Shown piece by piece: positions 20,450 to 43,433 of a stretch of 64,000 nt of DNA (positions are counted from its first letter, which is position 1; every line of letters begins with the position of its first letter). The translations under genes were made by a program, and so were the position numbers. The stretch comes from Anaerobutyricum hallii. GTDB lineage: Bacteria; Bacillota; Clostridia; Lachnospirales; Lachnospiraceae. The DNA lies in NCBI RefSeq assembly GCF_900209925.1, contig NZ_LT907978.1, positions 1,237,219 to 1,301,218 of the forward strand. The letters run 5' to 3'. The notes beneath the pieces are model-generated. The model saw only the letters and a program-made list of their open reading frames with translations, made no database searches and had not been told where the DNA came from.

Positions 20450-20564
20450 GCCCTTATAAGTTCTTATTATATAAAAATGCGCCTTAGAGCAAGCTCAAAA
20501 TACGGTTACGTATTTTGAGTGCAGTGATACGAAGCATTTTTATATAATAAGAACTTATAAGGGC
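20450..20564. repeat. Palindromic cassette A7 (bidirectional terminator-like)
   Basis: Two exact 31-base arms (20450-20480 and 20534-20564; GCCCTTATAAGTTCTTATTA... and its complement) enclose a core of GAGCAAG, a second hairpin CTCAAAATAC/GTATTTTGAG, and CAGTGATAC. It sits between convergent proA and the gene at 20583. It shares its stem / internal loop / stem plan with cassettes A1-A6 but not its stem sequences. Confidence 0.85.
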
Positions 20565-20582
20565 GTCTCTTTATTCCAAACC

Positions 20583-21407
20583 TTAAGCAGCAAACTCCTG
20601 CTGTCTTTGATCAAGTATTGCTTTATATTCATCGCAATTATCTGCTGTGATATTCTCAAGCTCGTCATCCGGAAGAATACGTCTGTCGTAGTTTCTTCGG
20701 AAAAAGCCTCTTAAATAAATGAGAAAAGCAGAATTATAAATCTTTCTTGTCAGTCTTAAAATCTCTTCATAATTAATCTCTTTTAAAGCGTGATATAAAT
20801 CAAAGAAATCATCGGTATCAAGATGTGCAAACTGTAAAGTCTGCTCTAATAAAACGTCATCATTCTCAAAGAGAGATATATAACCCAGCAAATACATTAA
20901 CTGGCGGAAGGTCATAATAAAGTCATTCGGTTCTAATGTTTCAAGGAACTGCTCAAAACTGACCTTCACTCTCCATAGTCCTTCTTCTAAAAGATGGCGG
21001 ATAGAAATCTCATTGAATGGACCAGGAATCTGAATCTTATCGATATGTACGGTTTTTAACGTGAGGCGCTCCATAAAACGGGCGAGTGTAACACGACAGG
21101 CATGGAATTCGGAATAAGCATTCATATAAACAAATAAATCTTCCGTCTCATCATAGGAACTATTTATGAAATCATAAAAATGAGTAAACTCATGGAAAAG
21201 AATAAAGCGGGCATAACTGTCACTATAAAGATGAAAGCGAGGGTTCAGATGCAAAATATACTTACCCTCAAGAAGTTCAAGGATATTAAAAAAACCTTCA
21301 ACATATTTTTCCGCATCATACTGTACTGCCGAAATCTGAATATCTTCCGGCAAATCATACTTTTCTTTATATTCATTCCATAAATCATTAATCTGTCTTA
21401 GATTCAT
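20583..21407 (-). CDS. HExxH-motif protein of unknown function
   Basis: 274 residues. The motif ILFHEFTHFYDF (HExxH) lies at about residues 90-101, followed about 30 residues later by AYSEFHACRVTLA, whose Glu and His are candidate third ligands. The C-terminal half is helical (LLYLGYISLFE-like, LRLTRKIYNSAFLIYL). There is no signal peptide. This is the layout of an intracellular zinc peptidase such as the ImmA/IrrE or SprT type, but I do not recognise a named family. GGAAGGCGG precedes the ATG. Confidence 0.6.
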   Translation of the reverse strand: MNLRQINDLWNEYKEKYDLPEDIQISAVQYDAEKYVEGFFNILELLEGKYILHLNPRFHLYSDSYARFILFHEFTHFYDFINSSYDETEDLFVYMNAYSEFHACRVTLARFMERLTLKTVHIDKIQIPGPFNEISIRHLLEEGLWRVKVSFEQFLETLEPNDFIMTFRQLMYLLGYISLFENDDVLLEQTLQFAHLDTDDFFDLYHALKEINYEEILRLTRKIYNSAFLIYLRGFFRRNYDRRILPDDELENITADNCDEYKAILDQRQQEFAA

Positions 21408-21509
21408 ATGTAACCCGCCTTCCTTACCTAATTGTCTATATTATATAACAATGCTTTTTAAATAACAACGCTATAATAAAAAGAAAAAGGATAAATTCTT
21501 GCGATTTTA

Positions 21510-22757
21510 TTAATTTGCCTTATAATAAAAGAACATTTGCGTTGTGAGAGCGCCTTCTTCTAAGTCTTTCTGGCTGACCCAGTCTCCAAAGGAAGAAGTG
21601 CCACGCTTTGGAAGATAATGTGGATCCATTAACAGGTATTTATCTTTTTTTGCATTGTAATCAACAATTGTTCCGTAGTGTCCCGGCAGATATACAATGG
21701 CAGTATCGCCAGCTTTTAATTTCTGCTTTAATTCCTTAAAAGATTCTCCGCATCCGTCATAAGAAAATCCATATTTATAACCGAACTTTTCAGCCGCCGC
21801 CTTAAAAAATCCGCTGTCAGTTCCACAATCTTCAATACGATAGCGTTTATCAGAAGCGTATTTTGCCAGTTCATATGGATCAGGGAAGTGACCGCTTAAT
21901 GAGTAAATAGCATTTACTGTAGCAAAAATTCCACATCCGGAAGTACAAAAATTATTTGTTTCTGTATCTTGTGTTGTTTCATTTCCGTAATGATGCTTGC
22001 CCCAAAGGGGATCAAATTGGACAAAAACCTGAAGATTTCCCTTTTCAATTGCCTTTTTATTTCTGGTAAGACGCCATAAAGCATTCTGGTTATTGGTAAA
22101 TTCTAAAAGATTGCTGTCATTTTCAGACAGAATTCGCTTGGTATTTACATCGCAGATAATATAATAATTCCCTTTTCTGGTAATGCGGAAAGTACCTGCT
22201 TCCTTTTCAGTTCCCCAAAGTTCATTAATATAAGGGTTAGTTTCCTGCAAGGTATCCGATTTTAGATATTTATCTTCATTTGCTTTTTTGATAGTGTAGC
22301 AATTATTTCCGACATACTTAAAGGTATAAGTGAGTGTATCGGCATATGCATGATAGCTATCTGTAGAAAAAGTAGAAGAATTCTGGTTTTGATAAAAAGA
22401 AAGATGGTATGTTCCATTCGCAAAAGGTCTTTTTTCCCGTCCGTCATAAATCAGGCAGTTTGATTGAAACTCTTCCCCTGTGATCCAGCCATAATTACTA
22501 GTCCCTTTTTTAGAAGTGTACTGAATCTCGTACCAGGAACCAGAAGAACCTACAACCTTTACTCCACTGTATTTAGGAAGCATCGTTTTTAAATCTTCAC
22601 TATAGTCAGAAATATATACTGACAATTCATTACGCGCCAAAGCATAAATGAAATCAGAATGGCTCTCATACCCATGCTGAAATGCAAATGATTTCGATGG
22701 AATGAGAAAACATCCGCAAATAATCAAAAGTAAAAATAAAATAGAATGTTTTTTCAA
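21510..22757 (-). CDS. Secreted C39-like cysteine peptidase with SH3-like and ricin-like domains
   Basis: 415 residues, starting at TTG after CGGAGGG. A signal peptide (KKHSILFLLLIICGCFLIPS) is followed by an SH3b-like segment (about 50-105, VVGSSGSWYEIQYTSKKG, YGWITGEEF), a beta-trefoil-like region (about 110-240, with repeated Y-x-I-x-K and ALWRL) and a C39-like peptidase domain. The peptidase shows Cys in NFCTSGCGIFA, His in LPGHYGTIVDY and Asp in LLMDPHY. It probably acts on the cell wall or on secreted peptides. No export partner is adjacent. Confidence 0.8.
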   Translation of the reverse strand: MKKHSILFLLLIICGCFLIPSKSFAFQHGYESHSDFIYALARNELSVYISDYSEDLKTMLPKYSGVKVVGSSGSWYEIQYTSKKGTSNYGWITGEEFQSNCLIYDGREKRPFANGTYHLSFYQNQNSSTFSTDSYHAYADTLTYTFKYVGNNCYTIKKANEDKYLKSDTLQETNPYINELWGTEKEAGTFRITRKGNYYIICDVNTKRILSENDSNLLEFTNNQNALWRLTRNKKAIEKGNLQVFVQFDPLWGKHHYGNETTQDTETNNFCTSGCGIFATVNAIYSLSGHFPDPYELAKYASDKRYRIEDCGTDSGFFKAAAEKFGYKYGFSYDGCGESFKELKQKLKAGDTAIVYLPGHYGTIVDYNAKKDKYLLMDPHYLPKRGTSSFGDWVSQKDLEEGALTTQMFFYYKAN

Positions 22758-23066
22758 AGATAGCCCTCCGTTTGTTTTTCATGTACTCTCGGTATTCTTG
22801 ATATTCTTATGATTCCGAGAGAGTATGTTACATTTTACAAAAGTCTTAAAAATATTAAATATATGTTACATTGCGCATTATTATACCATGAAATATCAAA
22901 AATGAAAACAAACATATTGCATAAAATGTATAGGATATTATGGCATAATTCCGATGAAAGAGATTGAGATAAATGATAATTCATGGTAAAATTATACAAA
23001 GTATTTCACAAATGAACTCTTTCTATGATTTTGTTATAGAAATACAGAACGAAAGGAATGAAGACA
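22758..23066. other. Intergenic region with a divergent promoter zone
   Basis: About 300 bases with no gene. TGTACTCTCGG and CCGAGAGAGTA near 22782-22830 form an imperfect inverted repeat whose GAGAGTACAT word recurs near 40078, 59228-59285 and 62040. A promoter candidate for the alarmone synthetase is TTGAGA (22964-22969), 17 bases, TAAAAT (22987-22992). Confidence 0.45.
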
Positions 23067-23828: not shown

Positions 23829-23941
23829 AGAAGTTGTAATGATATATTCTCTGGAAATAAATTGATTGTAAATCAGCTATAAATAGGTATAAATAAAGAA
23901 AAAAGACATAGTTAAATGATATAAGCAGGAGGTCTGTGTAT

Positions 23942-25071: not shown

Positions 25072-26106
25072 ATGTCAATAAAAAAGGATTATTATGAAGT
25101 TCTTGGAATAAATAAAAACGCAGATGATAAAGCAATTAAAAAAGCATACCGTAAACTGGCGAAAAAGTATCATCCGGATATTAATCCGGGAGATGCCAAT
25201 GCAGAAGCAAAGTTTAAAGAAGTTACAGAAGCTTATGAGATCTTAAGCAATCCAGAAAAAAGAAAACTTTATGATCAGTTCGGTCATGCCGCTTTTGATG
25301 GAACAGGAGGAGCGCAGTCAGGTGCGTATGGCAATGCCGGCGGCTTTGAAGGCTTTGAAGGCTTTAACGGCTTTAATGGATTTAATGGAGCCGGCGGATT
25401 CCATGGAGGAACCTATCGTACGAAGAATGGTAACGGATATCAGGAATTCCATTTTGAAGGTGGAGACATGGGAGATATCTTTGAAAACTTCTTTGGTGGA
25501 GGTTTCAAAAAGTCTGGATTTCAGAATGATTTCAAACAAACCGGAGGTTTTGGAAATCAGCAGCATTATCAGACAAAAGGCTCCGATATTCATGCTGAAA
25601 TCAATGTAAGTTTTGATGCAGCCGCCTTTGGTAAAAAAGAAACCATTCATTTAAAAGATGATCAGGGAAAGATACAGGCACTAGAAGTTAATATTCCGGC
25701 AGGAATCGAAACAGGACAGAACATCCGATTAAAAGGAAAAGGTTCTCCGGGATATCAGGGTGGTAGTGCAGGCGATTTGTTCCTGAAAGTTACTGTAAAA
25801 GAAAAACCTGGATTTAAACGAGAAGGTCAAAACTTATATAATACCGTCTCTATTCCATTTATTACTGCCGTACTCGGTGGTGATGTAACTGTACAGACAA
25901 TTTATGGAAATGTTCGCTGCAATATTAAGCCGGGAACGCAGTCAGGAAGTAAACTCAGATTGCGTGGTAAAGGTATTGTATCCATGAAGAATTCTTCTGT
26001 ATATGGTGATCAGTACACAACAGTGGAGGTTCAGGTACCGAAGAACCTGACACCAAGTGCAAAACAGAAACTCAGAGAATTTGAAGATGCCTGTAAAGCA
26101 GCTTAA
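25072..26106 (+). CDS. DnaJ-family co-chaperone (CbpA/short type, no zinc finger)
   Basis: About 344 residues. The J domain (residues 3-70) has [10 protein letters not shown] (the HPD that stimulates DnaK). A Gly/Phe-rich region follows (repeated [15 protein letters not shown], about 80-170), and then two beta-barrel substrate-binding domains ([35 protein letters not shown]). The CxxCxGxG zinc domain of true DnaJ is absent. It delivers substrates to DnaK. I take the ATG at 25072, eight bases after GAGAGGG, rather than the GTG at 25063. Confidence 0.9.
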
Positions 26107-26133
26107 GGCCTGGTTTGTAGGTTTGATGGAGAC

Positions 26134-26250
26134 GAAAAAAGAAAAAATACCATATCCCATCTGCTCTGTAGTCGTTGCGTTTAAGATGCTCGTCCGCATC
26201 TTAAACGCGCTTTGAAGACGCATCTGGGATATGGTATTTTTTCTTTTTTC
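26134..26250 (-). repeat. Palindromic cassette A1
   Basis: The arms GAAAAAAGAAAAAATACCAT... and their exact complement (26-bp stem) enclose the cassette core in reverse orientation: GTAGTCGTTGC, inner hairpin GTTTAAGATGC/GCATCTTAAAC, then the complement of the GGAGC side. The poly-A and poly-T arms make it a bidirectional terminator candidate between convergent genes. With A2 it bounds a 522-bp composite. Confidence 0.88.
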
Positions 26251-26538
26251 TGGCTACTCTAAATCCGCGCAAAAACCCCACAGCGTAAAGTTATAAAATG
26301 CAATATTTATAAAGATTCTCTTTTCTTTACCATAGTTTCCTTACAATTCAACAGGAAGTTCTATTACAACGGCTGTCTAACTTTATCTTATAGATTAGTT
26401 GATAAAAAGATATGAAAAAAATAAAATTTTAAGTATATACAACAATTTGAATGTCAACCCTTTAGAATTTAATTCCATGGAGAGACATAACTTTCTGGAG
26501 AAGTCCCATTCTCGCCAACTGTGGATATAGGATAGTCA
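26251..26538. other. Interior of composite palindromic element 1
   Basis: 288 bases without a gene. They share blocks with the interior of the second composite (40832-41118): CTGTCTAAC, TTTGAATGTCAA (26446-26457), CCTTTAGAATTTAATTC and GATAGTCAGAAAAAA. Confidence 0.6.
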
Positions 26539-26655
26539 GAAAAAAGAAAAAACAATATACCCCAGATGCGGCTTGGGAGCGTATTTAAGATGCGGATGAG
26601 CATCTTAAATACAGCGACTACAGAGCAGATGGGGTATATTGTTTTTCCTTTTTTC
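26539..26655 (+). repeat. Palindromic cassette A2
   Basis: Same architecture as A1 in the forward orientation. The arm's variable part is ACAATATACCCCA (complement preserved on the right). The core is CTTGGGAGC, inner hairpin GTATTTAAGATGC/GCATCTTAAATAC, then AGCGACTACAGAGCAG. Confidence 0.88.
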
Positions 26656-26687
26656 GTCTATACGAAATCTACAGGAATGGATTGTGT

Positions 26688-27626
26688 CTACTGCTGTGAG
26701 CTTTCCTGCAGCCAGCTTTGAACATCTTCTACTGCAATTTTTACTGCTTGTGCAATTTGTTCAATGGGCATTCCCATATCAGAAAGGCGAAGAACCGTTT
26801 CTTTTTTCTCTTCAAGTTTGCTGTTGTTAACTAAGTTCTCTAAAGCTTTACACATATCTATCTCACTCTCCCTTTCTTCCATAATTAATGACTGGTTTAT
26901 GATTCGCTGAGAATTGACGATAGAGCCAATTGTTAAGCCTAATTCAGCAGGTATGGATTTATTTTTGTATCGTTTATTAAAGTTAGTATAGTCTTCTTCG
27001 TAAATGAGGCGCACCATATCAAATACGGTTTGAACATCATTATTTTGAAATTGAAAATGTTCACTGCTTCGTATTTGTAACAGGTTCATTTTATAATCAG
27101 ATACCATAGGTTTTAAATCTTCGGTGACTTGAATCATATCTACCAAATTAGTTGGACCGTCCCATTCTTCTTCTCCATAGTATATGCATAGACCAATTAC
27201 AGGATGTAGTCGGTCTGTTTTTGTCAGTCCGGATAAAAATTCATCGGAGGAGCTATAGTTCTTTTCTCTTTTATTTCTGGCAGATAATTCATTATATTCC
27301 TTGAGATAGATTAATGCATCGGCGATCATGTGCCGGAGTGGCATGGCATAATGAATTTTTTCCTGATTCTCTAAACCCCAGATGATAAAGTCCGTTCCAT
27401 TCGCAGTTTTTCTGACAACATCTAAGATTCGCTGCACGGTTTCTGCGTGGTTGTTAAACTTTATTACAGAAGAAATATCAGTATCTGCTTCTTTTAAATC
27501 TTCTGGTTTTAATACTTGCTTTCCCTTAAATAAAATGGTATTAAATAAATCTGCAAATCGCTGATTATCTCTCCAGAAATTCTTTAGTACAGTGTCCGGT
27601 TTCACTTTATTACGAATCGCCGTCAC
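26688..27626 (-). CDS. Rpn-family/PD-(D/E)XK transposase-like nuclease
   Basis: About 312 residues. The N-terminal nuclease core matches the recombination-promoting (Rpn) class: FWRDNQRFADLFNTILF, then DFIIWGLENQEKIHYAMP (where the family has E-x-Q) and MPLRHMIADALIYLKEY. LHPVIGLCIYYGEEEWDGP is a strong family signature. The C-terminus is a helical region ending in a short helix-turn-helix-like motif (MGMPIEQIAQAVKIAVEDVQSWL). These proteins cut DNA and are expanded in many gut Firmicutes. The GTG at 27626 is six bases after AGGAAG; the GTG at 27632 abuts it. Confidence 0.8.
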   Translation of the reverse strand: MTAIRNKVKPDTVLKNFWRDNQRFADLFNTILFKGKQVLKPEDLKEADTDISSVIKFNNHAETVQRILDVVRKTANGTDFIIWGLENQEKIHYAMPLRHMIADALIYLKEYNELSARNKREKNYSSSDEFLSGLTKTDRLHPVIGLCIYYGEEEWDGPTNLVDMIQVTEDLKPMVSDYKMNLLQIRSSEHFQFQNNDVQTVFDMVRLIYEEDYTNFNKRYKNKSIPAELGLTIGSIVNSQRIINQSLIMEERESEIDMCKALENLVNNSKLEEKKETVLRLSDMGMPIEQIAQAVKIAVEDVQSWLQESSQQ

Positions 27627-27860
27627 TGTCACCTTCCTTTCTTTATTAGTATACTATAGGTGTTGCTATTTTGATATATAAACATATATTACCATATAAA
27701 AGATAGAAAGTAAATATATTCCATAAAAATTATTGATATTTTTTGTCAAGTCATTTTTCAGAAACTAGTTTTTAATATAGGGTATTTCTCTTATTGCGAT
27801 ACCTCATTAAAGCAAGTATAATATTAGATATAACATATTTTTAAGAAAAGAGGTGCAGTT

Positions 27861-29045
27861 ATGGGAATTTACTTGAATCCAGGGACAATAGAATTTCAGG
27901 AAAGTATAAATTCAGAAATATATGTAGATAAGACAATGCTTATTGAGAGAACAAATGCAGCTCTTAGAACAAAACAAAAGTATATGTGTATCAGCCGGCC
28001 GAGAAGATTTGGAAAGTCGATGGCGGCAGATATGCTTGCGGCGTATTACGGAAAGGATTATGATTCGGCGGCACTGTTCGATGGATTAGAAATTAGTCAT
28101 TGTGAGACATTTTCCACACATTTAAATAAATATAATGTTTTTAAGATAAATGTGCAGGAATTTTTAAGTATGACACAGAATGTAGATGAGATGCTTAAAG
28201 TACTTCAGAAAAGACTGATTAAAGAATTAAAATATAACTATCCAGAATATGTAGATTGTGATAATCTGGTGTTTGCCATGCAGGATATTTTCTCTTATAC
28301 AGGACAATCCTTTATTGTTTTGATTGATGAATGGGATTGCTTGTTTCGTGAATATAAACAGGATGAAGAGGCACAGAGAAAATATCTGGATTTTTTAAGG
28401 GTATGGCTAAAGGATAAAGCATACATCGCTCTTGCCTATATGACAGGAATTCTTCCGGTTAAAAAGTACGGAACGCATTCTGCATTAAATATGTTTATGG
28501 AATATTCGATGACAGATTCTGGAAATATGGCAGAATATTTTGGTTTCACAGAAAAGGAAGTAGAGAATCTTTGCATAGAATATGGAATGAGTATAGAGGA
28601 AACAAAAGCATGGTATAATGGGTACGGTCTTTATGACCATAACAAACAGGAGGATATTTTATATTCTATTTACAATCCAAAGTCAGTTGTAGAAGCAATG
28701 TTACGTCACAGATTTGGAAACTACTGGAATCAGACAGAGACATATGAAGCACTTAAGGTATATATTCAGATGAATATGGATGGCTTAAAAGATGCTATCA
28801 TTGAAATGCTTGCGGGTAATAGCGTAAGAATTAATATAGGTACCTTTCATAATGATATGACGACATTTGCAACGAGAGATGATATTTTGACGCTGCTTGT
28901 GCATTTGGGATATCTTACTTATGATGTAGAAAAAGAATCCGTTAGAATTCCGAATAAAGAGGTGGCGCAGGAATATATTAATGCAATCAGTACGATGGAT
29001 TGGAAAGAGGTAATTTTTTCTATAAATAATTCAAGGGTAATTTAA
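27861..29045 (+). pseudogene. AAA-ATPase-like/PDDEXK protein with C-terminal deletion
   Basis: 394 residues with the AAA-ATPase-like domain of the DUF1703-linked family: SRPRRFGKSMAADML (P-loop, about 45-60), FIVLIDEWDCLF (Walker B), ALAYMTGILPVKKYG, WYNGYGL. The frame stops at residue 394, whereas the neighbour has 536. Just past the stop, another frame reads GNLILAGINYDKKQKSILA and then stops, which is the usual extreme C-terminus of the family. About 120 residues, including the nuclease core, appear deleted, with the junction near 29030-29045. The ATPase domain is otherwise intact. Confidence 0.75.
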
Positions 29046-29149
29046 TTCTGGCAGGAATTAATTATGATAAAAAACAAAAAAGCATACTTGCCTGATAGAG
29101 AAGGTAGAATATAATTTGAAATAAAATAGACAGGAAAGGGGATGTTAAA

Positions 29150-31386: not shown

Positions 31387-31401
31387 ATTGGCACTCGACT
31401 A

Positions 31402-31429
31402 TTGACATGGCTAATAATATCTGTATAAT
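31402..31429 (+). promoter_or_regulatory. Promoter of mecA
   Basis: TTGACA (31402-31407), 16-base spacer, TATAAT (31424-31429). It lies inside a longer reading frame that could start at 31407, which shows that the real mecA start is downstream at 31470. Confidence 0.7.
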
Positions 31430-31469
31430 AAAGTTAGGCAAAGCAAATGGCCTTGAAAGAAGGGATATT

Positions 31470-33517: not shown

Positions 33518-33518
33518 A

Positions 33519-34205
33519 ATGGATTTTTTAGAAGAAAAAGTATTTGACCGGGAGCAGTATGATACCTATATCCGCCGCATTCATTATGATGACCGGGATG
33601 CGGTCATGTATGAGAAAATGTTGCATTTCCTTTTCCCTTATATTGTGGAAGAACGAGGGATAGAAGATTGCGTGGGACTGATGGAAGAATATATTCACTG
33701 GAATGAACAATTAATAGAGAAGTGTCTGTATCATTTGCCGCATGATGTGCCTTATATTAATATTTGCCGGGCGTATCAGTCTGTTGTGTTGCTGCTGGCA
33801 GGTAAGTTAGAAGAAGGAATAGAGCAGCTTAGAAAGATTGGAACAGAGAATTTTCAATATGATGGAAAAGCACCAAAAGTGATCATGACACAGGATGGGA
33901 CGATTTATAAACCGGTATCAAAGCTGTTTCTTTTATATAATTATGCAAAGGTGTTGAAAAAAAAGGGAGATTTTGAAGGCCTTGAAGCTTTCAAGAAAGA
34001 ATTTCCTCATGCATTTACTGTTTATGGTGATGAAGGACATACAGAACATGACCTGTTTTACAGGCAGCAGGTAGAACAATACGAAGATGTATTGTTTTAT
34101 CCGATCTATCAGAGAGTTTATAAAGCTGGACGGGGACCGCAGGATTTCTTTGTTTATTATGATGTGGAAAAGTCGGTGCCTGTTTCACATATAATTTCAA
34201 TTTAA
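33519..34205 (+). CDS. Hypothetical protein downstream of the PheA-like gene
   Basis: About 228 residues, not recognised, rich in helices that look like TPR-type pairs (YINICRAYQSVVLLLAGKLE, LFLLYNYAKVLKKKGDFEGLE). There is no signal peptide or catalytic motif. The ATG at 33519 is nine bases after AAGGAG; a longer in-frame start would overlap the previous gene. It lies between the PheA-like gene and metY, so it is probably cotranscribed. Confidence 0.6.
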   Translation: MDFLEEKVFDREQYDTYIRRIHYDDRDAVMYEKMLHFLFPYIVEERGIEDCVGLMEEYIHWNEQLIEKCLYHLPHDVPYINICRAYQSVVLLLAGKLEEGIEQLRKIGTENFQYDGKAPKVIMTQDGTIYKPVSKLFLLYNYAKVLKKKGDFEGLEAFKKEFPHAFTVYGDEGHTEHDLFYRQQVEQYEDVLFYPIYQRVYKAGRGPQDFFVYYDVEKSVPVSHIISI

Positions 34206-34236
34206 TAGCATTTAATATTTTATGGAGGGAAAACGA

Positions 34237-35520: not shown

Positions 35521-35537
35521 TATTCAGATTCAGATAT

Positions 35538-35601
35538 AGAAAGCTGTAGAGGTAAGAAAACATTTACATAAAGATGCAATACCCACTACAGCTTTTTTGT
35601 A
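35538..35601 (+). terminator. Terminator after metY
   Basis: AAAGCTGTAG pairs with CTACAGCTTTTTT across a 36-base loop. Confidence 0.7.
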
Positions 35602-35736
35602 ATAGGGACAAATTGGAAAAAGAAAAAGTAAAGAAGTCTTATTTTGCACACATTTTAAATGTATAATGCCTTTTGTAACAAGTTGTTAACAAATAATATA
35701 TATTTACACAACAATTATTGCGAGAGGAGTTTACAA

Positions 35737-36771
35737 TTGAAACATAAAAAGACACTATTTACATTCTTGCTTCTGTGTGGGTTATTCGTTCTTAGTAAGC
35801 CGGTATCCGCAGCGAAAGTACCGGTAATTCGTGCAGGCAAGTCAACAAATTTAAAAGGAACCATCATTAATGTGAAGTACAGAGGAACAGCAGTGACAAT
35901 GGCAGATAATTCAGCGGCACCATCTATTAAGATTGGTTCTGATATTTTTGTACCATGCAAAACGCTTTTTTCTGATAATGGAATCCATGCAGCTTATGCA
36001 GCAGATGGAAATAAAGTCACATTAAGACATGGAAGGCGAAAGGTTATTTTTTATGCGAATAAGAAGTATGCAAAGGTGAACGGAAAGAAGATGAGCTTAA
36101 AAGTTAAGCCATATTTTGTTACATATAAGCGGAGTAATGTAAGAGATCTTCTTGTTCCTGCAAAGCAGGCAGCTTCTTTCCTTGGATTAAAATATAGTTA
36201 TCGCAGTGATGCGCGTCTGGTAACACTGGGGCTTCGTAATGGAATTGAAGAATCTGCGACACAGACAAGAAGTGTGGATAAGAATGAGTTTATTGATACG
36301 ATCGGACCGCTTGCAAGGGCTAACTACAAACGTACAGGAATTCTTGCTTCTGTAACAATGGCACAGGCTATTTTGGAAAGCGGATGGGGCCAGTCTACAT
36401 TAGCAGAGAATGGGAATAATCTTTTTGGAATGAAGATTAGTTTATCCGGTAATAACTGGGCTGGTTCTGCATGGGATGGAATCAACTATTATAAGAAGTC
36501 TACATATGAATATGGAGGCGGTGGCAGATATTCGATCAAAGCGAAGTTCCGTAAGTATTCCTGTGTGGAAGACTCTATTGAAGATCACTCCGCCTATCTT
36601 TTAGGGGCGAAGAGCGGAAGCAGAAAAAGATATGCAGGATTGACGAAGACAAAGAGTTATAAAAAGCAGCTTCAGATAATTAAAAAGGGAGGATACGCTA
36701 CATCCGGTTCTTATGTGAATGATCTGTGCAGAGTAATCCGTACATATCATCTTACAAAATGGGATAAATAA
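35737..36771 (+). CDS. Secreted glucosaminidase with copper-amine-oxidase-like N-terminal domain
   Basis: 344 residues from a TTG at 35737, nine bases or so after GAGAGGAG; this start gives a clean signal peptide (KHKKTLFTFLLLCGLFVLS). A longer frame from 35659 does not. After the signal comes a stalk-like domain (about 55-170, IKIGSDIFVPCKTLFSDNGI), typical of copper amine oxidase N-like repeats that bind the cell surface. Next is a FlgJ/LytD-type glucosaminidase domain: SVTMAQAILESGWGQSTLA (catalytic Glu), NNLFGMK, and AGLTKTKSYKKQLQIIKKGG near the end. It cleaves peptidoglycan outside the cell. Confidence 0.88.
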   Translation: MKHKKTLFTFLLLCGLFVLSKPVSAAKVPVIRAGKSTNLKGTIINVKYRGTAVTMADNSAAPSIKIGSDIFVPCKTLFSDNGIHAAYAADGNKVTLRHGRRKVIFYANKKYAKVNGKKMSLKVKPYFVTYKRSNVRDLLVPAKQAASFLGLKYSYRSDARLVTLGLRNGIEESATQTRSVDKNEFIDTIGPLARANYKRTGILASVTMAQAILESGWGQSTLAENGNNLFGMKISLSGNNWAGSAWDGINYYKKSTYEYGGGGRYSIKAKFRKYSCVEDSIEDHSAYLLGAKSGSRKRYAGLTKTKSYKKQLQIIKKGGYATSGSYVNDLCRVIRTYHLTKWDK

Positions 36772-36794
36772 GTAAATATTTATAAAGACAGTAT

Positions 36795-36823
36795 TTGACC
36801 CTATAGAGAAAGTGTATTATAGT
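36795..36823 (+). promoter_or_regulatory. Promoter upstream of the VanZ-like gene
   Basis: TTGACC (36795-36800), 17-base spacer, TATAGT (36818-36823). A hairpin with T-run follows immediately. Confidence 0.55.
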
Positions 36824-36850
36824 AAAAGCAGGTTTCGGCCTGCTTTTTTG
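36824..36850 (+). terminator. Hairpin terminator overlapping a promoter
   Basis: AAAAGCAGG, loop TTTCGG, CCTGCTTTTTT. It ends transcription from the glucosaminidase gene, but lies where the promoter at 36795-36823 would start its RNA. Confidence 0.7.
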
Positions 36851-36909
36851 AATTTTTGATATTTGGAATCTTATCAAAGCAGGTTACTATTTATAAGGGG
36901 AGATCAATT

Positions 36910-37311
36910 ATGGAACGAATGTTAGAAGGAATGGTCATCTTTATAGCCAGAATACATAATTATATTTTGTCATTGAATGATGCCTACGAGAAGAACTTTA
37001 CAGACAAACAACTGCATTTCCTTGTAATCGGGATTATAGGTATGCTGATTTTAGCAGTAATCTATCCGCTATTTAAGATTTTAAGTGAAAATCATATCCT
37101 TGCGATTGCATTTATTTATGTATTCACAGTTATTGTTGTTATAACCTTTGCTATTGAGATTGGACAGAAGATTTCCGGTACCGGAACAATGGATTTTGCA
37201 GATATTGTATTTGGACTTGCAGGATTTTTACTAATGTTTGCTATATTTGCAGTCATTCGAGAAATTATTCTTGCTATTGTTAATCTTTTACGAAAGATAG
37301 GAAGACATTAG
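36910..37311 (+). CDS. VanZ-like membrane protein
   Basis: About 133 residues with three or four membrane helices. The VanZ-like signature is visible: DKQLHFLVIG before the first helix, AIEIGQKISGTGTMDFADIVFG in the middle and GFLLMFAIFAVIREI at the end (the family's E..Q ... D..D ... G pattern). The function of this group is not settled; the name comes from a teicoplanin-resistance gene. The ATG at 36910 follows GGGGAG. Confidence 0.75.
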   Translation: MERMLEGMVIFIARIHNYILSLNDAYEKNFTDKQLHFLVIGIIGMLILAVIYPLFKILSENHILAIAFIYVFTVIVVITFAIEIGQKISGTGTMDFADIVFGLAGFLLMFAIFAVIREIILAIVNLLRKIGRH

Positions 37312-37312
37312 A

Positions 37313-37371
37313 TATATCAGATGTGAGATGACCCCACCTCTGTAGGTGGCGAGCAACAGATCAAGAATCCT
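37313..37371 (+). repeat. B2 repeat, 5' fragment
   Basis: ATATATCAGATGTGAGATGA, the hairpin CCACCTCTGTAGGTGG and GAGCAACA match the start of the B2 unit at 39844. The remainder is replaced by a terminator. Confidence 0.7.
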
Positions 37372-37391
37372 GTAAAAGGGATTCTTTTTTT
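37363..37391 (+). terminator. Terminator after the VanZ-like gene
   Basis: AAGAATCC, loop TGTAAAAG, GGATTCTTTTTTT. Confidence 0.8.
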
Positions 37392-37491
37392 CTGTTCATA
37401 TTTTTTCTGCATTTTTTTCATACAATTTTCAGAAAATTAGTGTATGATATAGAAGAAAAGAAAATTAAGCAAGAATGAGGGAGGCTTTTTC

Positions 37492-38169
37492 ATGGATAAA
37501 TTAAAAATAATGATCGTAGATGATGAGAGCAGAATGAGGAAACTGGTAAAGGATTTCCTGAAAAAGAAGGACTTTGAAGTTGTAGAAGCCGCAGATGGCG
37601 AAGAAGCCCTGGATATCTTTTTTAAAGATAAAAGCATCAGTTTAATCATCTGTGATGTAATGATGCCTAAAATTAATGGATTTGATGTAGTAAAAGAAAT
37701 TCGCCAGTATTCACAGGTTCCGATTATCATGCTGACTGCAAAGGGCGAGGAGAGCGATGAGCTTAATGGATTTGACCTTGGAGTAGACGAATATATTTCC
37801 AAACCATTCAGCCCAAAGATTCTTGTTGCCAGAGTTGAGGCAATTTTAAGAAGAAGTAATAATCTTTCTACAGGAGAAATACGGAAAGCGGGCGGTATTG
37901 AACTTGATATTGCAGCACACGAAGTCAGAATTGATGGAAAGGAGATTACATTAAGTTTTAAAGAATTTGAATTACTGAACTATTTCGTAATGAATCAGGG
38001 AGTAGCACTTTCAAGAGAAAAGATTCTTAATAACGTATGGAATTATGATTATTTTGGAGATGCCAGAACGATTGACACCCATGTCAAAAAGCTGCGTAGT
38101 AAGCTGGGCGAAAAGGGAGAGTATATCAAGACAATCTGGGGAATGGGCTATAAGTTTGAGGTAGATTAA
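37492..38169 (+). CDS. OmpR-family response regulator
   Basis: 225 residues. The receiver domain has IVDDESRMRKLV (acidic pair), ICDVMMPKINGFDV (phospho-acceptor Asp), LTAKGEE and YISKPFSPKIL (Lys). A winged helix follows (LSFKEFELLNYFVMNQGVAL, DTHVKKLRSKLG). It is the DNA-binding half of a two-component system with the kinase 59 bases downstream. Its targets are unknown. GAGGGAGG precedes the ATG. Confidence 0.95.
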   Translation: MDKLKIMIVDDESRMRKLVKDFLKKKDFEVVEAADGEEALDIFFKDKSISLIICDVMMPKINGFDVVKEIRQYSQVPIIMLTAKGEESDELNGFDLGVDEYISKPFSPKILVARVEAILRRSNNLSTGEIRKAGGIELDIAAHEVRIDGKEITLSFKEFELLNYFVMNQGVALSREKILNNVWNYDYFGDARTIDTHVKKLRSKLGEKGEYIKTIWGMGYKFEVD

Positions 38170-38177
38170 GTAAGGTG

Positions 38178-38212
38178 GCATCTTGCAGCAGGAATGCCGG
38201 GGCATTCTTGAA
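38178..38212 (+). repeat. B2 tail hairpin fragment between regulator and kinase
   Basis: GCAGCAGGAATGCCGGGGCATTCTTGAA-type hairpin, the same as the end of the B2 unit at 40020. It lies in the 59-base gap between the two-component genes and could lower kinase expression relative to the regulator. Confidence 0.65.
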
Positions 38213-38228
38213 TGGTTAGGAGTACAGT

Positions 38229-39794
38229 ATGAGAAATTCAATACGATTTAAGATGACATCAATATTAATCCTGATTGTAGGATGGGTCATTGTATTTACA
38301 TGGCTTTTGAATCATACATTTTCAGAAAAATATTATGTGTCATCTGAAAAAGAATCCATCGTGGAGACTTTTAATAAAGTCAAGAATATCTTAAAGAATG
38401 AAGAGGATCAGGATACCATTGATGAGGAAATGGAACAGATTTCTAATAAGACAAATATAAAGATGATGATCGCGCAGTCCAGTAACTATTATTATAGTCA
38501 AAATGTAATATTTAGTAATCTGATAGACGGAAGTAAAACGTACGAAGAGATTCTTGGTTACCTTGATCAGATTCGAAGCCAGGTTATTCTTGGTAATAAG
38601 GGAAACTATTTCTGGGGGGATAATAAAAAGCATATCCTGCCATGGGAAAAGACAGAGGAGAATAACTTTTCTACACTGATAAATAAAGGATATTTTGTAA
38701 CGCAGTTAAAAGATCAGGCCAGTGGGCAGAATGGCATTTATCTCTTTGGATTTACAGATAACGATTATTTGATCGCCATGCGCGTATCAATTGAAGGAAT
38801 ACGGGCCAGTGCAGATATCAGCAGCCGATTTATGATATATATCGGAATGATCGGTATCATACTGGGAAGTCTGATTATCTTTATTTTTGCATCCAGTTTT
38901 ACAAAGCCGATTAAAAATATGGCATCTGTTGCTAATCGAATGGCTAATCTGGATTTTGATGCGAAGGTTGAAGTCACGCAGGATGATGAACTAGGAGAAC
39001 TGGGTAATTCAATGAATCAGTTATCGGAAAAGCTGGAATCGACAATCGCAGATTTAAAATCGGCAAACCTGGAACTGAAGAAGGATATTGAGAAAAAAGA
39101 AAAGATTGATGATATGAGGAAGGAATTCCTCTCCCACGTCAGTCATGAACTAAAAACACCGATTGCCCTGATTCAAGGCTATGCAGAAGGCTTAAAAGAA
39201 AATATTACAGATGACGAAGAAAGCAAGGACTTCTATTGTGAAGTAATCGCAGACGAAGCGAAAAAGATGAATGCAATGGTCAAAAAGCTTCTCACGCTCA
39301 ATCAGATCGAATTTGGCAATAATCAGCTCAGTATGCAGCGCTTTGATGTATGTCAGATGATTCAAAATAAGATCAATTCATCGCAGATACTTTTCAAAAA
39401 GAAGAATAATAAGGTTCTCTTTGAAGAACAAGGTCCGGTATACGCCTGGGCTGATGAATTAATGATTGAAGAAGTATTCAGTAACTATCTGTCTAATGCA
39501 TTGAATCACGTTTATGAAAATGGTACGATTCGAATCTGGTTTGAACGTATGGATAGTAACCTTCGTATTCATGTATATAATGACGGTAAATGCATTCCGG
39601 AAGAAGAACTCAATAAGCTCTGGATCAAGTTTTATAAAGTTGATAAAGCTAGAACGAGAGAATACGGAGGAAACGGAATCGGTCTATCTATCGTAGCAGC
39701 AACAATGAAAGCACATGGAAAGGACTTTGGAGTAGCAAATAAAGAAAATGGAGTAGACTTCTACTTTGATTTAGATGCTAAAATTAAATCTTAA
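38229..39794 (+). CDS. HAMP-containing sensor histidine kinase
   Basis: 521 residues. TM1 at about 10-30, an extracytoplasmic sensor domain (about 35-195), TM2 at about 200-222 (FMIYIGMIGIILGSLIIFIF), HAMP (PIKNMASVANRMANLDFD), then a HisKA box with FLSHVSHELKTPIALIQGYA (phospho-His) and an HATPase_c domain (NYLSNALNHV N-box, IRIHVYNDGKCI, GGNGIGLSIV). It phosphorylates the upstream response regulator. The signal is unknown. Confidence 0.95.
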   Translation: MRNSIRFKMTSILILIVGWVIVFTWLLNHTFSEKYYVSSEKESIVETFNKVKNILKNEEDQDTIDEEMEQISNKTNIKMMIAQSSNYYYSQNVIFSNLIDGSKTYEEILGYLDQIRSQVILGNKGNYFWGDNKKHILPWEKTEENNFSTLINKGYFVTQLKDQASGQNGIYLFGFTDNDYLIAMRVSIEGIRASADISSRFMIYIGMIGIILGSLIIFIFASSFTKPIKNMASVANRMANLDFDAKVEVTQDDELGELGNSMNQLSEKLESTIADLKSANLELKKDIEKKEKIDDMRKEFLSHVSHELKTPIALIQGYAEGLKENITDDEESKDFYCEVIADEAKKMNAMVKKLLTLNQIEFGNNQLSMQRFDVCQMIQNKINSSQILFKKKNNKVLFEEQGPVYAWADELMIEEVFSNYLSNALNHVYENGTIRIWFERMDSNLRIHVYNDGKCIPEEELNKLWIKFYKVDKARTREYGGNGIGLSIVAATMKAHGKDFGVANKENGVDFYFDLDAKIKS

Positions 39795-40109
39795 CCTAAT
39801 CCCATAAATCAGTTAAGTCCGACAGTCTTTTTATAAAAAAGTTTATATCAGATGTGAGATGACTCCCACCTCTGTAGGTAGCGAGCAACAAATCAGTATC
39901 AGTGGGGGAGTCAATCCCCCATCTGATATAGCCTCCGGCAGGATTGCAGAGATGCGCAGAAGAAGTATGTCATGCATTGCATGACGCGCATCTCGCAGCA
40001 AGAATGCCGAGGCATTCTTGAATTCTTGCAGAAAATACGTTGTTATCATGAAAACGTACAAGTGCAAGAAAAACTCCGAGAGTACATTTAGTAAAATAGG
40101 GGGAAAACA
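39795..40109. other. Repeat-filled intergenic region
   Basis: 315 bases with no gene; nearly all of it is the full B2 unit, followed by CCGAGAGTACAT and a GGGGGAAA ribosome site for the DUF2284 gene. Confidence 0.7.
39844..40020 (+). repeat. Structured repeat family B2, full copy
   Basis: A 177-bp unit. The first half is closed by TATCAGATG / CATCTGATA and contains GACTCCCACCTCTGTAGGT. Next comes GAGATGCGC / GCGCATCTC around an inner hairpin TGTCATGCA/TGCATGACG, and finally AAGAATGCC / GGCATTCTT. Fragments occur at 37313, 40966, 38178 and 32395. The layout parallels B1 although the stem sequences differ. Confidence 0.78.
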
Positions 40110-40691
40110 ATGAAAGAGAAGAAATATGCTGCTGAAAAGATAGAAAATTTTCAGGTAGAAGTTCCTATGGAAGAATATGTGAAAGAATGTGTGGATGTTG
40201 CGACGTTTCTTGAATTTTGCAAGGAATGTTCAAACTATGGGAAGCTATGGTGTTGTCCACCATATACATTTGATGTGGAGAAGGATTATTGGAATAAGTA
40301 TCGTAAAATTCAAATTATGGGACGAAAATTATATCTGCCAAAAAAACTTACAAGTCAGTCCTATGTGGAAAATGAACAATGGAAAGTAACAGAAGAATTT
40401 CTTCGCCCTTATAAAGAGGAATTAGAAGAGGAAATCTTGAAATTAGAGCAGAAATATTCCGGAAGTATTTCTTTAAGTAGTGGTGCCTGTCTGCATTGTA
40501 AAAAAGCAGAATGTACACGCGTATCTGGTGAACCTTGCCGTTTTCAGGATAAAATGCGTTATTCGATAGAATCATTAGGAGGAAATGTTGGTAAAACGGT
40601 AACTAAGTATCTCAATCAGGAATTACAGTGGGTAGAAGAAGGGAAACTCCCAGAATATTTTATGCTGATTTATGGACTGTTGATTTTGTAG
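40110..40691 (+). CDS. DUF2284 predicted metal-binding protein
   Basis: 193 residues with a conserved cysteine set: FCKECSNYGKLWCCPPYTF in the first half and GACLHCKKAECTRVSGEPCR later, followed by the family's S-x-E-x-x-G motif (RYSIESLGGNVG). These cysteines very probably hold an iron-sulfur cluster or zinc. No function is established. GGGGGAAA precedes the ATG. Confidence 0.85.
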   Translation: MKEKKYAAEKIENFQVEVPMEEYVKECVDVATFLEFCKECSNYGKLWCCPPYTFDVEKDYWNKYRKIQIMGRKLYLPKKLTSQSYVENEQWKVTEEFLRPYKEELEEEILKLEQKYSGSISLSSGACLHCKKAECTRVSGEPCRFQDKMRYSIESLGGNVGKTVTKYLNQELQWVEEGKLPEYFMLIYGLLIL

Positions 40692-40714
40692 ATTTTGTAG
40701 ATTTGGTGTAGACG

Positions 40715-40831
40715 AAAAAAGAAAAAAGGATATATTCCATCTGCTCTGTAGTCGCTGGATTTAAGATGCTCATCCGCATCTTAAACCCACTCCCAAGCCG
40801 CATCTGGAATATATCCTTTTTTCTTTTTTCT
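40715..40831 (-). repeat. Palindromic cassette A3
   Basis: Reverse orientation, like A1. The stem variable part is AAGGATATATTCCA with its complement preserved. The inner hairpin is GTTTAAGATGC-like (GATTTAAGATGC / GCATCTTAAACC), with GTAGTCGCTGG on the left. It lies between convergent genes and with A4 bounds a 521-bp composite. Confidence 0.88.
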
Positions 40832-41118
40832 GCCTAATCTAAATCCACAGTTTAATAATAGATATTTCTTCAGTGCCTGTCTAACATTATCCCACAGATC
40901 AGTTGAAAAATAAGGGGTTTGTTTGTCCTAAAATCTATGATTTTCATTCAAATAAAAATCTGTATATCCGATGTGAGATGACTCCCATCTCGCAGCAAGA
41001 ATGCCGGGGCATCCTTGAACCAACCATTTGAATGTCAATCCTTTAGAATTTAATTCATGGACAGCCGTATCCCTCTGGAGAATTCCCATTTTTACCAGCT
41101 ATGGATTTGCGATAGTCA
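40832..41118. other. Interior of composite palindromic element 2, with a nested B2 remnant
   Basis: 287 bases without a gene. They share CTGTCTAAC, TTTGAATGTCAA (41027-41038), CTTTAGAATTTAATTC and CTCTGGAGAA-type blocks with composite 1. A B2 remnant at 40966-41017 is absent from composite 1. Confidence 0.6.
40966..41017 (+). repeat. B2 repeat with internal deletion
   Basis: The head (GATGTGAGATGACTCCCA) is joined directly to the tail (TCTCGCAGCAAGAATGCCGG); about 120 bases of the full unit are missing. Confidence 0.7.
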
Positions 41119-41235
41119 GAAAAAAAGAAAACTACCCTATCCCAGATGCGGCTTCGGAGCGTGTTTAAGATGCGGACGAGCATCTTAAACACAGCGACTA
41201 CAGAGCAGATGGGATATGGTAGTTTCCTTTTTTTC
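41119..41235 (+). repeat. Palindromic cassette A4
   Basis: Forward orientation. The arms differ at one position (CTACCCTATCCC versus CTACCATATCCC on the complement). The core is CTTCGGAGC, inner hairpin TGTTTAAGATGC / GCATCTTAAACA, then CAGCGACTACAGAGCAG. Confidence 0.88.
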
Positions 41236-41256
41236 TACCAAATCTACAGATCAGAA

Positions 41257-41469
41257 TTATTCATATAGTGGAAAACTTCCGGATTCTTCTTCGTTGAATA
41301 CGTAGTATACGGCGTTCTCTTCTGGTTTTAAGTATAAATCCATCGTTTTTAAATCTTTAACTTTGCGGTCTTTATTACCTGCATCTACCCAGACTTTTTT
41401 TGCTTTTGCAATAACCTCTTTGCTTTCAATTTGGTTTCCTGCAAATTCTACATTATATGTTGATTTCAT
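41257..41469 (-). CDS. DUF6465-family small protein
   Basis: 70 residues matching the small Lachnospiraceae family DUF6465: VEFAGNQIESKEVIAKAKKV, then DLYLKPEENAVYYVFN. It is a compact alpha/beta protein with no signal. Function unknown. AAAGGGG precedes the ATG by about eight bases. Confidence 0.75.
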   Translation of the reverse strand: MKSTYNVEFAGNQIESKEVIAKAKKVWVDAGNKDRKVKDLKTMDLYLKPEENAVYYVFNEEESGSFPLYE

Positions 41470-41668
41470 TTATGTATCCCCTTTCCTGATTGGAATTATT
41501 ATAATGTACTATTGTTACAAATATCATATAACAAATCTTACCAAAAATCAATGATGAAATTTCGACAAGGAATGAGGATAGAGATTTGAATTTTTTATAG
41601 ATAAATCTTGCAAAATAAATGTTTTTCAACTAGAATAAAAAGGAATGAAGTACAGGAGGATGAAGAAG

Positions 41669-42274
41669 ATGGTTGCAATTATCGATTATGATGCCGGAAA
41701 TATTAAAAGTGTAGAAAAAGCATTACTACATCTTGGAGAAGAGGTAATAATCACACGTGATCGTGAGCAGATTTTAAATAGTGATAAAGTTATCTTACCG
41801 GGGGTTGGGGCATTTGGAGATGCCATGGAAAAGCTTCGCTCATATGGACTTGATAAAGTAATTTACGAGGTAGTAGAGAGAAAGATTCCATTTTTGGGGA
41901 TTTGTCTTGGGTTGCAGCTTCTTTTTGAAAAAAGTGATGAAACACCAGGTGTAAAAGGCCTTGGAGTTTTGCCGGGAGAGATTTTAAGGATTCCAGATAA
42001 AGAGGGGATTAAGATTCCGCATATGGGATGGAATTCTGTTAAAATAAAAAAAGATGCAAGGATTTTTAAGGATGTTCCACAGGACTCTTATGTCTATTTC
42101 GTACATTCTTATTATCTGAAAGCAGGAAGAGAGGAAGATGTAGCGGCAACGACAGAGTATTCTACATTAATTCATGCGGCTGTAGAACATGACAATGTAT
42201 TTGCCTGTCAGTTCCATCCGGAAAAAAGTAGTGAGATTGGTCTGAAGATTCTCAAGAATTTTGTGGAGTTATAA
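41669..42274 (+). CDS. hisH: Imidazole glycerol phosphate synthase, glutaminase subunit
   Basis: About 201 residues. A class I glutamine amidotransferase: nucleophile Cys in [13 protein letters not shown], His and Glu in [11 protein letters not shown], oxyanion region [11 protein letters not shown]. It supplies ammonia to HisF in histidine synthesis. I start at 41669, nine bases after AGGAGG, at the conserved [10 protein letters not shown]. Only hisH and hisF of the pathway are here. Confidence 0.95.
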
Positions 42275-42286
42275 AAGGAGATATAT

Positions 42287-43045
42287 ATGTTTACAAAAAG
42301 AATTATTCCCTGTCTTGATGTTAATGACGGCAGAGTAGTAAAAGGTGTGAATTTTGTTAATTTAATCGATGCTGGAGATCCGGTAGCTATTGCAGAAGCA
42401 TACGATAAGGCCGGGGCAGATGAACTTGTATTTCTCGATATAACAGCATCTTCTGATGCAAGAAATACCGTAGTGGACATGGTGCGAAAAGTAGCAGAAA
42501 AGGTTTTTATTCCGTTTACTGTTGGTGGAGGAATACGAACAGTAGATGATTTTAAAGCAATTCTTCGTGAAGGAGCAGATAAAGTTTCTGTCAATTCAGC
42601 AGCAATTATGCGACCGGAACTGATCAGCGAAGCAGCAGATAAATTTGGAAGCCAGTGTGTGGTTGTTGCTATTGATGCAAAAAGAAGAAAAGATGGAGGC
42701 TGGAATATTTTTAAAAACGGTGGAAGAGTGGATATGGGTCTTGATGCCGTAGAATGGGCGATGAAAGCAGAAAAGCTTGGAGCAGGAGAAATTCTTCTTA
42801 CCAGTATGGATTGTGACGGAACAAAAGCAGGTTATGATCTAGAACTGACACGTATGATTTCAGAAAATGTATCGATTCCGGTCATTGCTTCCGGTGGTGC
42901 AGGAACAAAAGAACATTTTTATGATGCATTTAATGAAGGTAAAGCAGATGCAGCATTAGCAGCATCTTTATTTCATTTCAAAGAATTGGAAATAATGGAC
43001 CTGAAAAAATATCTTAGAGAAAAAGGAATTTCAGTAAGGATATAA
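42287..43045 (+). CDS. hisF: Imidazole glycerol phosphate synthase, cyclase subunit
   Basis: 252 residues, full length (beta/alpha)8 barrel. Catalytic Asp in [15 protein letters not shown] and the second Asp in [15 protein letters not shown]; phosphate sites [10 protein letters not shown] and [10 protein letters not shown]. It joins ammonia from HisH to PRFAR, giving IGP and AICAR. It lies 12 bases after hisH. Confidence 0.96.
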
Positions 43046-43092
43046 GATAGATATATATAGAAGGATATGAACCAATTGTGGATTTAAATTAG

Positions 43093-43216
43093 ACAGAAAA
43101 AAGAAAAAATGATACATTCCAGATGTGGCTTCGGAGCGTGATTGAGATGCGAATGAGCATCTTAAATACAGCGACTACAGAGCAGATGGAATGTATCATT
43201 TTTTCTTTTTTTTGTC
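43093..43216 (+). repeat. Palindromic cassette A5
   Basis: Forward orientation. Arm variable part ATGATACATTCCA with complement preserved; core CTTCGGAGC, inner stem GATTGAGATGC / GCATCTTAAATAC (weaker here), then AGCGACTACAGAGCAG. It lies between convergent hisF and the symporter gene. Confidence 0.86.
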
Positions 43217-43313
43217 TATCCTAAACCAACAGTTGGTATAAAATCGTAGACTTTTGGATAATCCCCTCTTTCCCATAGACAAAAATACGGATTTCATCTG
43301 GAGCCAAAGGACA

Positions 43314-43433
43314 GAAAACCAGAAATATTATATAGACTAAAATGTGATGTCGGAGCAAGTAAAAATGCCGGTCAGGCATTTTCTACGCCGCGACTATCTT
43401 CACATTTTAGTCTATATAATATTTCTGGTTTTC
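43314..43433 (+). repeat. Palindromic cassette A6 (divergent type)
   Basis: Exact 34-base arms (GAAAACCAGAAATATTATAT... and complement). Core GTCGGAGCAAG, inner hairpin AAAATGCC/GGCATTTT, then GCCGCGACTATC. Stem sequences are unrelated to A1-A5; the core motifs are kept. Confidence 0.82.

Follow-up and report, generated by a model that had tools for sequence, protein, structure and literature searches.

Paired arm changes in a palindromic repeat family at gene 3′ ends in Anaerobutyricum

Introduction

How can the arms of a DNA palindrome differ from copy to copy and yet match each other within each copy? The question is raised by seven palindromes, A1–A7, in a 64,000-nucleotide stretch of an Anaerobutyricum genome (hereafter the window; positions 1237219–1301218 of a genome assembled as one contig of 3,515,670 bases). 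An initial annotation, made from the letters of the window alone, had described these palindromes as copies of one plan and proposed that they are mobile or self-templating bidirectional terminators. All seven are present with that plan where it placed them (Table 1). In A1–A5 the middle of the arm is copy-specific and the partner arm is altered in step, as it had also claimed.

The initial annotation allowed two sources for such covariation, selection for structure or a copying process that rebuilds symmetric arms. The copying process fits the counts best, but exchange of whole hairpins between copies occurs as well. In our best reading, to which we assign a probability of about 0.55, the palindromes are non-autonomous mobile elements whose arms are kept paired by arm-to-arm copying plus some exchange between copies. 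A change in one arm would be copied onto the other, most simply by quasipalindrome template switching during DNA replication, and recombination between copies would exchange hairpins and allow one subtype to replace another at old sites. The 3′ ends of genes are where copies persist: there the terminus contributes stop codons, and the hairpin may stop transcription. An enzyme acting in trans would presumably mobilise the copies.

Architecture of the element

A finder that accepts only stretches with a core motif and an arm score of 14 or more was used to collect copies. It was applied to 593 kb of the window genome (G000; 40 fetched stretches totalling 529 kb, plus the window) and to 330 kb of a close relative taken to be A. 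hallii (G003; 20 stretches, with 12 more, 42 kb, fetched later). Fetched stretches are designated L followed by a number; as they were picked for holding copies or orthologs, copy densities within them are not genome averages. The search yielded 137 copies in the window genome (core type I in 102, type II in 26 and nine others) and 35 in A. hallii, of which 33 are of type IV.

Each copy reads ACA, an arm opening with G, an internal loop, the core hairpin, a second arm closing with C, and then GTCT or a near variant. The internal loop is GGAGC / GCGACTA, the arms are 26–34 bp long and enclose an inner hairpin, and the basal step is ACA / GTC-TGT, with GTC read as unpaired between the arm and the basal ACA/TGT pairs. 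In most of the copies listed, the sequence after the 3′ arm is CGTCT or differs from it slightly, and GACTAC, which is GTAG on the opposite strand, lies at the inner loop. The repeat boundary is sharp and falls ~30 nt past CGTCT. Terminal inverted repeats, of AAATNCTRATTTG-type and TTACTATTTAATTCA-type, match at 12 or more of 13 terminal bases in 26 of 172 copies, the remaining 146 falling below this threshold. The unit measures 178–194 bp in 24 of these 26; the other two are 154 and 168 bp long. Copies often occur as opposite-facing twins with their CGTCT sides outward. Two A. hallii copies (L222 and L230) have CGTC-type flanks on both sides, as expected from the collapse of such twins.

Paired variation in the arms

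The covariation is pronounced. In a 32-copy alignment, 233 cells had changed on both sides, compared with a shuffle mean of 72.7 (0 of 500 shuffles reached 233) and with at most 63 two-sided cells for sliding partners. Two-sided changes occurred in 21 of the 24 pairs of the covariance alignment. Among 172 copies, only 65 of 4856 arm pairs (1.3%) are non-Watson–Crick; 115 copies are perfect, ten have gaps, and the residual mismatches are 29 G.T, 22 A.C and 14 others. Strict-core-motif matches in the fetched parts carry long complementary arms in 125 of 127 cases in the window genome and in 30 of 30 in A. hallii; the finder's arm-score threshold accordingly drops two of 127 and none of 30 such matches.

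Self-complementarity coexists with variety. The 81 type I copies compared have 44 different 5′ arms, and the variation is concentrated at arm positions 12–20 of 26, where diversity reaches 0.59; elsewhere it is at most 0.07. On the reading strand, the outer tract of type I is rich in T.

Tempo and spectrum of arm changes

Near-perfect pairing, the T-rich outer tract and the location of copies at gene ends are what would be expected of RNA terminators evolving by classical two-step compensation, in which pairing is selected and G-U intermediates are passed through. The intrinsic terminators of Bacillus cereus evolve in this way, according to the part of Safina et al. (2017, PMC5381666) available to us. 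That text gives a ratio of G-U to A-C intermediates of 68:8, whereas the residual mismatches described here show no clear wobble bias (29 G.T to 22 A.C; Fisher p=3.5e-5). It also reports that 79% of switches in B. cereus are A-U/G-C. The palindrome arms are instead transversion-rich, with 17 transitions and 30 transversions (p=2.6e-9), counted on minimum-spanning-tree edges of one or two changes only, a restriction that excludes roughly half of the type II edges and most of those of type IV. By type, the transition/transversion counts are 13/21 (I), 4/5 (II) and 0/4 (IV, on 24 inner pairs).

Comparison of copies with similar flanks gives the tempo; these pairs share copies and are hence not independent, and those with unequal lengths or gapped arms were excluded. 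For the eight pairs whose left flanks differ by at most 5%, 215 arm pairs hold 12 compensated and 0 uncompensated differences, or 0.056 per pair, set against 0.030 (38/1280) in the flanks and 0.029 in the core. At a limit of 10% (29 pairs) there are 79 compensated and seven uncompensated differences, at 0.099 per arm pair versus 0.064 in the flank. Copy L241 and the closest A. hallii copy, its putative ortholog L348, differ by one compensated switch; their cores are identical and their flanks differ at 3 of 169 positions. Two-sided changes are thus about as numerous as, or more numerous than, neutral flank changes, which two slow steps through a harmful intermediate fit poorly, and no intermediate was found in the closest pairs. 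One-step arm-to-arm copying gives the two-sided tempo directly. As the family is also confined to one clade, two-step compensation of selected terminators is considered an improbable source of the pairing.

Exchange between copies and turnover between species

Arms could also differ solely because whole hairpins are exchanged, by ectopic gene conversion or by re-insertion into old sites, with the pairing itself selected and slowly evolved. Several observations favour this view. Hairpin parts correlate weakly or not at all with the flanks, and the flanks correlate with each other. L239 has the arms, the core and almost the whole right flank of L246 (a difference at 1 of 23 positions), but its left flank is that of L238; this pair is better read as an exchange of the whole hairpin.

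Comparison of the two species points in the same direction. Among 53 reciprocal best ortholog pairs, the element lies at the gene end in both species in four, in only one species in seven and in neither in 42 (p=0.007). All four shared sites differ in element type, being I (three) or II (one) in the window genome and IV in A. hallii. The protein ends are the same in three and differ by one residue in the fourth. Retention of the protein ends despite the change of type implies that old sites received a new element or were converted. By eye, the A4 gene adds a fifth shared case, with type I here, type IV in A. hallii and the same protein end.

If exchange were the only process, however, the core should travel with the arms. 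Of 66 arm–core site pairs, none is linked at p<0.01, compared with six of 15 arm–arm pairs. Pairs with identical arms have cores no more alike than others (4.54 vs 4.44 differences). Two-sided arm differences are likewise independent of core difference, averaging 2.54 in 41 pairs with identical cores and 2.80 over all 3240 pairs of the 81 copies used (of 96 measured type I copies, those with equal 26-base arms and a 44-base core). In the six pairs in which the arms have changed and the left flanks differ by 5% or less, the core differs at only 0–3 of 62–65 positions, against a mean of 4.3 over all type I pairs, and no donor for the L241/L348 switch was seen among the copies examined. Exchange alone is therefore regarded as possible but doubtful, the strongest of the alternatives weighed here.

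The sequences at six of the seven one-sided sites were inspected. In the species lacking a complete copy, two have remains of the element, two an ordinary short terminator (L212 near 3010; the window near 50261) and two neither. At the site orthologous to A7, A. hallii has lost the core but still has the outer hairpin, which differs from that of A7 by one compensated T-A/C-G switch. At the L267/L230 site A. hallii retains only a terminus. These two sites are losses, not empty sites. Near 1609 in L212, A. hallii has a complete unit whose 15-base terminal repeats match perfectly; the window genome has no unit there.

The simple, coreless hairpin at the A. hallii A7 site might suggest that a mobile core inserts itself into the loops of pre-existing, unrelated terminator hairpins, so that the arms are target sequence; copy-specific, self-complementary arms would then arise in one step. 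That site has the outer tags without the core, however, which makes core loss the simpler reading. Conserved ACA and GTC tags and the terminal repeats lie outside the arms, arm length is near-constant within a type, and the arms form families of related sequences. Moreover, the terminator and element hairpins compared (L251/L212; window 50261/L214) looked unrelated by eye, and none of the six sites read was an empty site with a same-armed, untagged (CAG/CGTC) hairpin. Loop insertion is accordingly considered very improbable, the least probable of the explanations weighed.

Weighing arm-to-arm copying

A further feature bears on template switching. In L072 the core is inverted relative to the outer tags, the one clear case among 189 copies scored (164 normal, 24 unclear). 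Inversion of a core or loop is a template-switch footprint described in the available part of Monttinen and Loytynoja (2022, PMC8794818).

Several observations weigh against arm-to-arm copying as the mechanism, or against its generality. The outermost 11 and innermost six arm positions are nearly invariant, which copying alone does not explain. The type I inner hairpin keeps G.T pairs, in 29 of 100 copies at one position; it holds 58 G.T and nine A.C cells, and two positions account for 45 of these 58 G.T cells, which are probably inherited. That the inner hairpin goes uncorrected counts against general copying. Transversions make up a larger share of the arm switches than of the residual mismatches (30/47 vs 14/65, p=1.1e-5), so plain copying of ordinary mutations misfits the spectrum. 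The excess tempo also disappears as flanks diverge: at up to 15% flank difference (67 pairs) there are 168 compensated and 32 uncompensated differences, at 0.093 per arm pair versus 0.100 in the flank, and the sharing of copies among close pairs weakens the estimates at every limit. The orthologous type I pair L262/L342 shows two compensated and three uncompensated differences by eye. A hybrid of two half-elements in L335 (about 1510–1645; G000 near 1176680), whose A. hallii ortholog is a normal copy, has mismatched arms that were left uncorrected. The L239/L246 exchange is a further point of this kind, and on the side of mobility no target duplication was recognisable by eye beside 26 units and no cognate transposase was found.

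A variant of the copying idea is active rewriting of the arms: whenever an element is mobilised or repaired, new bases would be placed in the middle of one arm and copied across, giving each copy a self-matching barcode next to an outer tract, loop and core that do not change. This is held to be unlikely, and arm-to-arm copying with some exchange remains the preferred reading.

Placement at gene ends

The initial annotation stated that all seven palindromes lie only in 3′–3′ gaps. This holds within the window, but genome-wide it does not: of 131 copies placed in the fetched part of the window genome, 64 lie in convergent, 64 in tandem and three in divergent gaps. The enrichment for convergent gaps is nonetheless clear when gaps are counted, and gap types are filled unevenly. 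In the fetched part of the window genome a copy is held by 39 of 65 convergent, 47 of 306 tandem and three of 64 divergent gaps; the corresponding figures for G003 are 11 of 22, 13 of 209 and two of 24 (convergent vs tandem, p=8e-13 and p=5e-7, respectively). Genes were called with a simple codon-score script, which misses small genes.

Orientation relative to the neighbouring gene is a stronger rule than convergence: copies lie next to a gene 3′ end with the CGTCT side facing the gene. Counting gene stop codons up to 100 nt from the core, 91 of 137 copies in the window genome and 24 of 35 in G003 have one on the CGTCT side; only one and three, respectively, have one on the opposite side. Distances cluster, with 15 of the 91 stops at 47–49 nt, 27 at 54–56 nt and 24 at 61–63 nt (66/91 together). 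Pooled over types, distances modulo 3 divide into 36, 28 and 27. Most such stops fall inside or directly before the element terminus. The terminus of the commonest subfamily, AAATNCTRATTTGTAGATTT towards the hairpin, contains TAA or TGA plus TAG, and a TAA often abuts it. At the symporter gene beside A6, the protein ends in ...ETKKYFQKF in the window genome and in ...ETKKYFEKIRK in an element-free species (L277, hand translation). The ends of this gene in seven other species, with L279, L281, L272 and L273 left out of the comparison, were without such a hairpin.

Termination of transcription at the hairpins is predicted and likely, and the bidirectional terminator role proposed initially is plausible. 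A terminator consensus scan of 25900–43600, which permits loops of 3–8 only, listed no copy.

Distribution and mobilisation

The genome-wide core motif pattern, GAGC-N25..40-GCGACTA, matched the window genome 103 times on the forward and 109 times on the reverse strand (212 in all), compared with 1 + 2 = 3 matches for the reversed pattern used as control. A covariance model built from 32 copies (R1), with up to 150 candidates scored per genome, found the family in two of 24 genus genomes, the window genome and A. hallii G003, with at least 150 candidates in each; the other 22 gave no match. A strict pattern matched the window genome 80 + 80 times and each of the other 298 genomes of the bacterial family (Lachnospiraceae) at most three times, not above control. 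A second covariance model (R2), which takes in types I–IV, was run against 299 genera of the family under stricter filters, and the window genome alone matched among the best candidates scored (up to 11 per genome). One type I stretch compared with named genomes matched four contigs of Anaerobutyricum hallii DSM 3353 and gave two single matches elsewhere. In viral contigs at least 120 stretches matched a pattern that was too loose; these were taken as chance and not used. Because the R1, strict-pattern and R2 searches match so few genomes, the family looks young and tied to one Anaerobutyricum clade at the sensitivity used.

The initial description of the family as mobile is upheld: there are more than 200 copies, some of these carry terminal inverted repeats, certain sites are occupied in just one of the two species, and 22 genus genomes gave no match. 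The last of these also disfavours an old terminator family of the genus, as do the symporter gene ends without such a hairpin in seven other species. Candidate enzymes were considered. Mobilisation by IS200/IS605 was rejected, as no copy lies beside the IS200 gene of the window in the stretch 4400-5560 and Y1_Tnp occurs in 16 of 24 genus genomes, 14 of which are without the element. Mobilisation by RAYT was likewise rejected: NF047646 scored above cut-off in none of the 24 genus genomes and below it in 13. The heads of literature result lists turned up no description of these repeats in Anaerobutyricum, which is not proof that none exists.

Several A. hallii contigs (C8, C10, C116 and C138 among them) start or stop in or near a copy, which suggests that the palindromes interrupt draft assemblies and that copies in A. 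hallii may be undercounted. An additional intergenic repeat, ~240 bp long, was observed at L257 15717–15952, L241 1474–1710 and 11865–12100, and G003:C144 30457–30692, with several further places; it is 93–94% alike between the two species at best match.

The seven palindromes of the window

The positions of the palindromes and the gene ends beside them are collected in Table 1.

Table 1. Palindromes of the window, with the strand of the conserved motif.
Feature	Position	Strand	Description
A1	26134..26250	-	type I hairpin; 3′ end of dnaJ-type gene
A1 gene-side terminus	26107..26133	-	abuts TAA of dnaJ-type gene
A2	26539..26655	+	type I hairpin; 3′ end of gene 26688-27632(-), weak Transposase_31 match
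A3	40715..40831	-	type I hairpin; 3′ end of DUF2284 gene 40110-40691
A4	41119..41235	+	type I hairpin, two mismatched pairs; 3′ end of a minus-strand gene
A5	43093..43216	+	type I hairpin; gap between hisF and Na-alanine symporter
A6	43314..43433	+	type II hairpin, perfect 34-bp arms; terminus supplies TGA stop of symporter gene 43452-44852(-)
A7	20450..20564	+	divergent type, perfect 31-bp arms; 3′ end of gene 20583-21407(-)

Predicted folding energies of these palindromes range from -63 to -73 kcal/mol. The exact arms reported initially for A6 and A7 were found at the lengths claimed. A4 had been credited with a single mismatch; it has a second, one lying in the variable part and the other in the outer A/T tract. 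Single mismatches are also present in A2, within the outer tract, and in A5, where the outermost pair is affected.

Most of the gene names given initially (proA, dnaJ-type, DUF2284, hisF and the symporter) stand. The Rpn assignment beside A2 is borne out weakly, by a Transposase_31 (YhgA-like) match of 25.2 bits (E 1.4e-5), and the gene at 20583-21407(-) has no family match. At gathering thresholds Rfam matched only a glycine riboswitch in the window and none of the palindromes. This riboswitch (RF00504, 53.1 bits) lies at 45089-45186(-), upstream of the sodium:alanine symporter gene whose end is A6. An IS200/IS605-family transposase gene lies at 4893-5327(-), and the stretch read around it (4400-5560) holds no palindrome copy.

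Comparison with known repeats and hairpins

The element is a new variety of palindrome resembling repetitive extragenic palindromes (REPs) and miniature inverted-repeat transposable elements (MITEs), and the tempo and symmetry of its arm changes are the unusual part. The CGTC- and GTAG-tagged REPs described by Di Nocera, De Gregorio and Rocco (2013, PMC3733652), as far as the available part of that paper covers them, are alike in high copy number, in occupying convergent and tandem gaps near gene 3′ ends, in forming opposite-facing pairs and in having one tagged end. In GTAG REPs, as here, the stop codon often comes from the terminus, and for CGTC REPs the same text gives no known transposase, just as none was found for the present element. 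In that text REPs are 20–40 bp long and CGTC REPs have stems of 8–9 bp, whereas the present units are ~190 bp long with copy-variable arms of 26–34 bp and have, unlike those REPs, a conserved internal loop, an inner hairpin and terminal inverted repeats. The five phyla listed there for CGTC repeats do not include Firmicutes. As oriented here, CGTC lies on the 3′ side of the palindrome and is a candidate counterpart of the REP CGTC tag.

MITEs as a general class are alike in short length, many copies, terminal inverted repeats and sites filled in one of two close species. In the present element, however, no target duplication or parent transposon was found, and the interior is one long palindrome.

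The maintenance of RNA hairpins by template switching, in the available text of PMC8794818, resembles the present case in two-sided stem changes arising in one event and in loop inversion. There the process was inferred from reconstructed histories of RNA genes; here it would act in a natural family of more than 200 copies in one genome. Template-switch mutations associated with quasipalindromes in Escherichia coli were studied in mutation assays, according to the part of PMC7202029 available, whereas only natural sequences are considered here. The B. cereus terminators are alike as gene-end hairpins with paired changes; as far as the available part of PMC5381666 reports, G-U intermediates and A-U/G-C switches dominate there and most changed pairs are one-sided, and the closest pairs here show none of these.

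Implications

Two-sided stem changes are usually taken as proof of a selected RNA structure. Here they occur in a family of more than 200 copies that bears marks of DNA copying, which is a warning that covariation should not be read as selection by default. The family offers a natural system in which strain sequencing can separate two-step compensation, template switching and exchange between copies. For Anaerobutyricum, it represents a mobile element that lives at gene ends, is able to supply the stop codon, and differs in subtype from its counterparts at the corresponding sites of a sister species.

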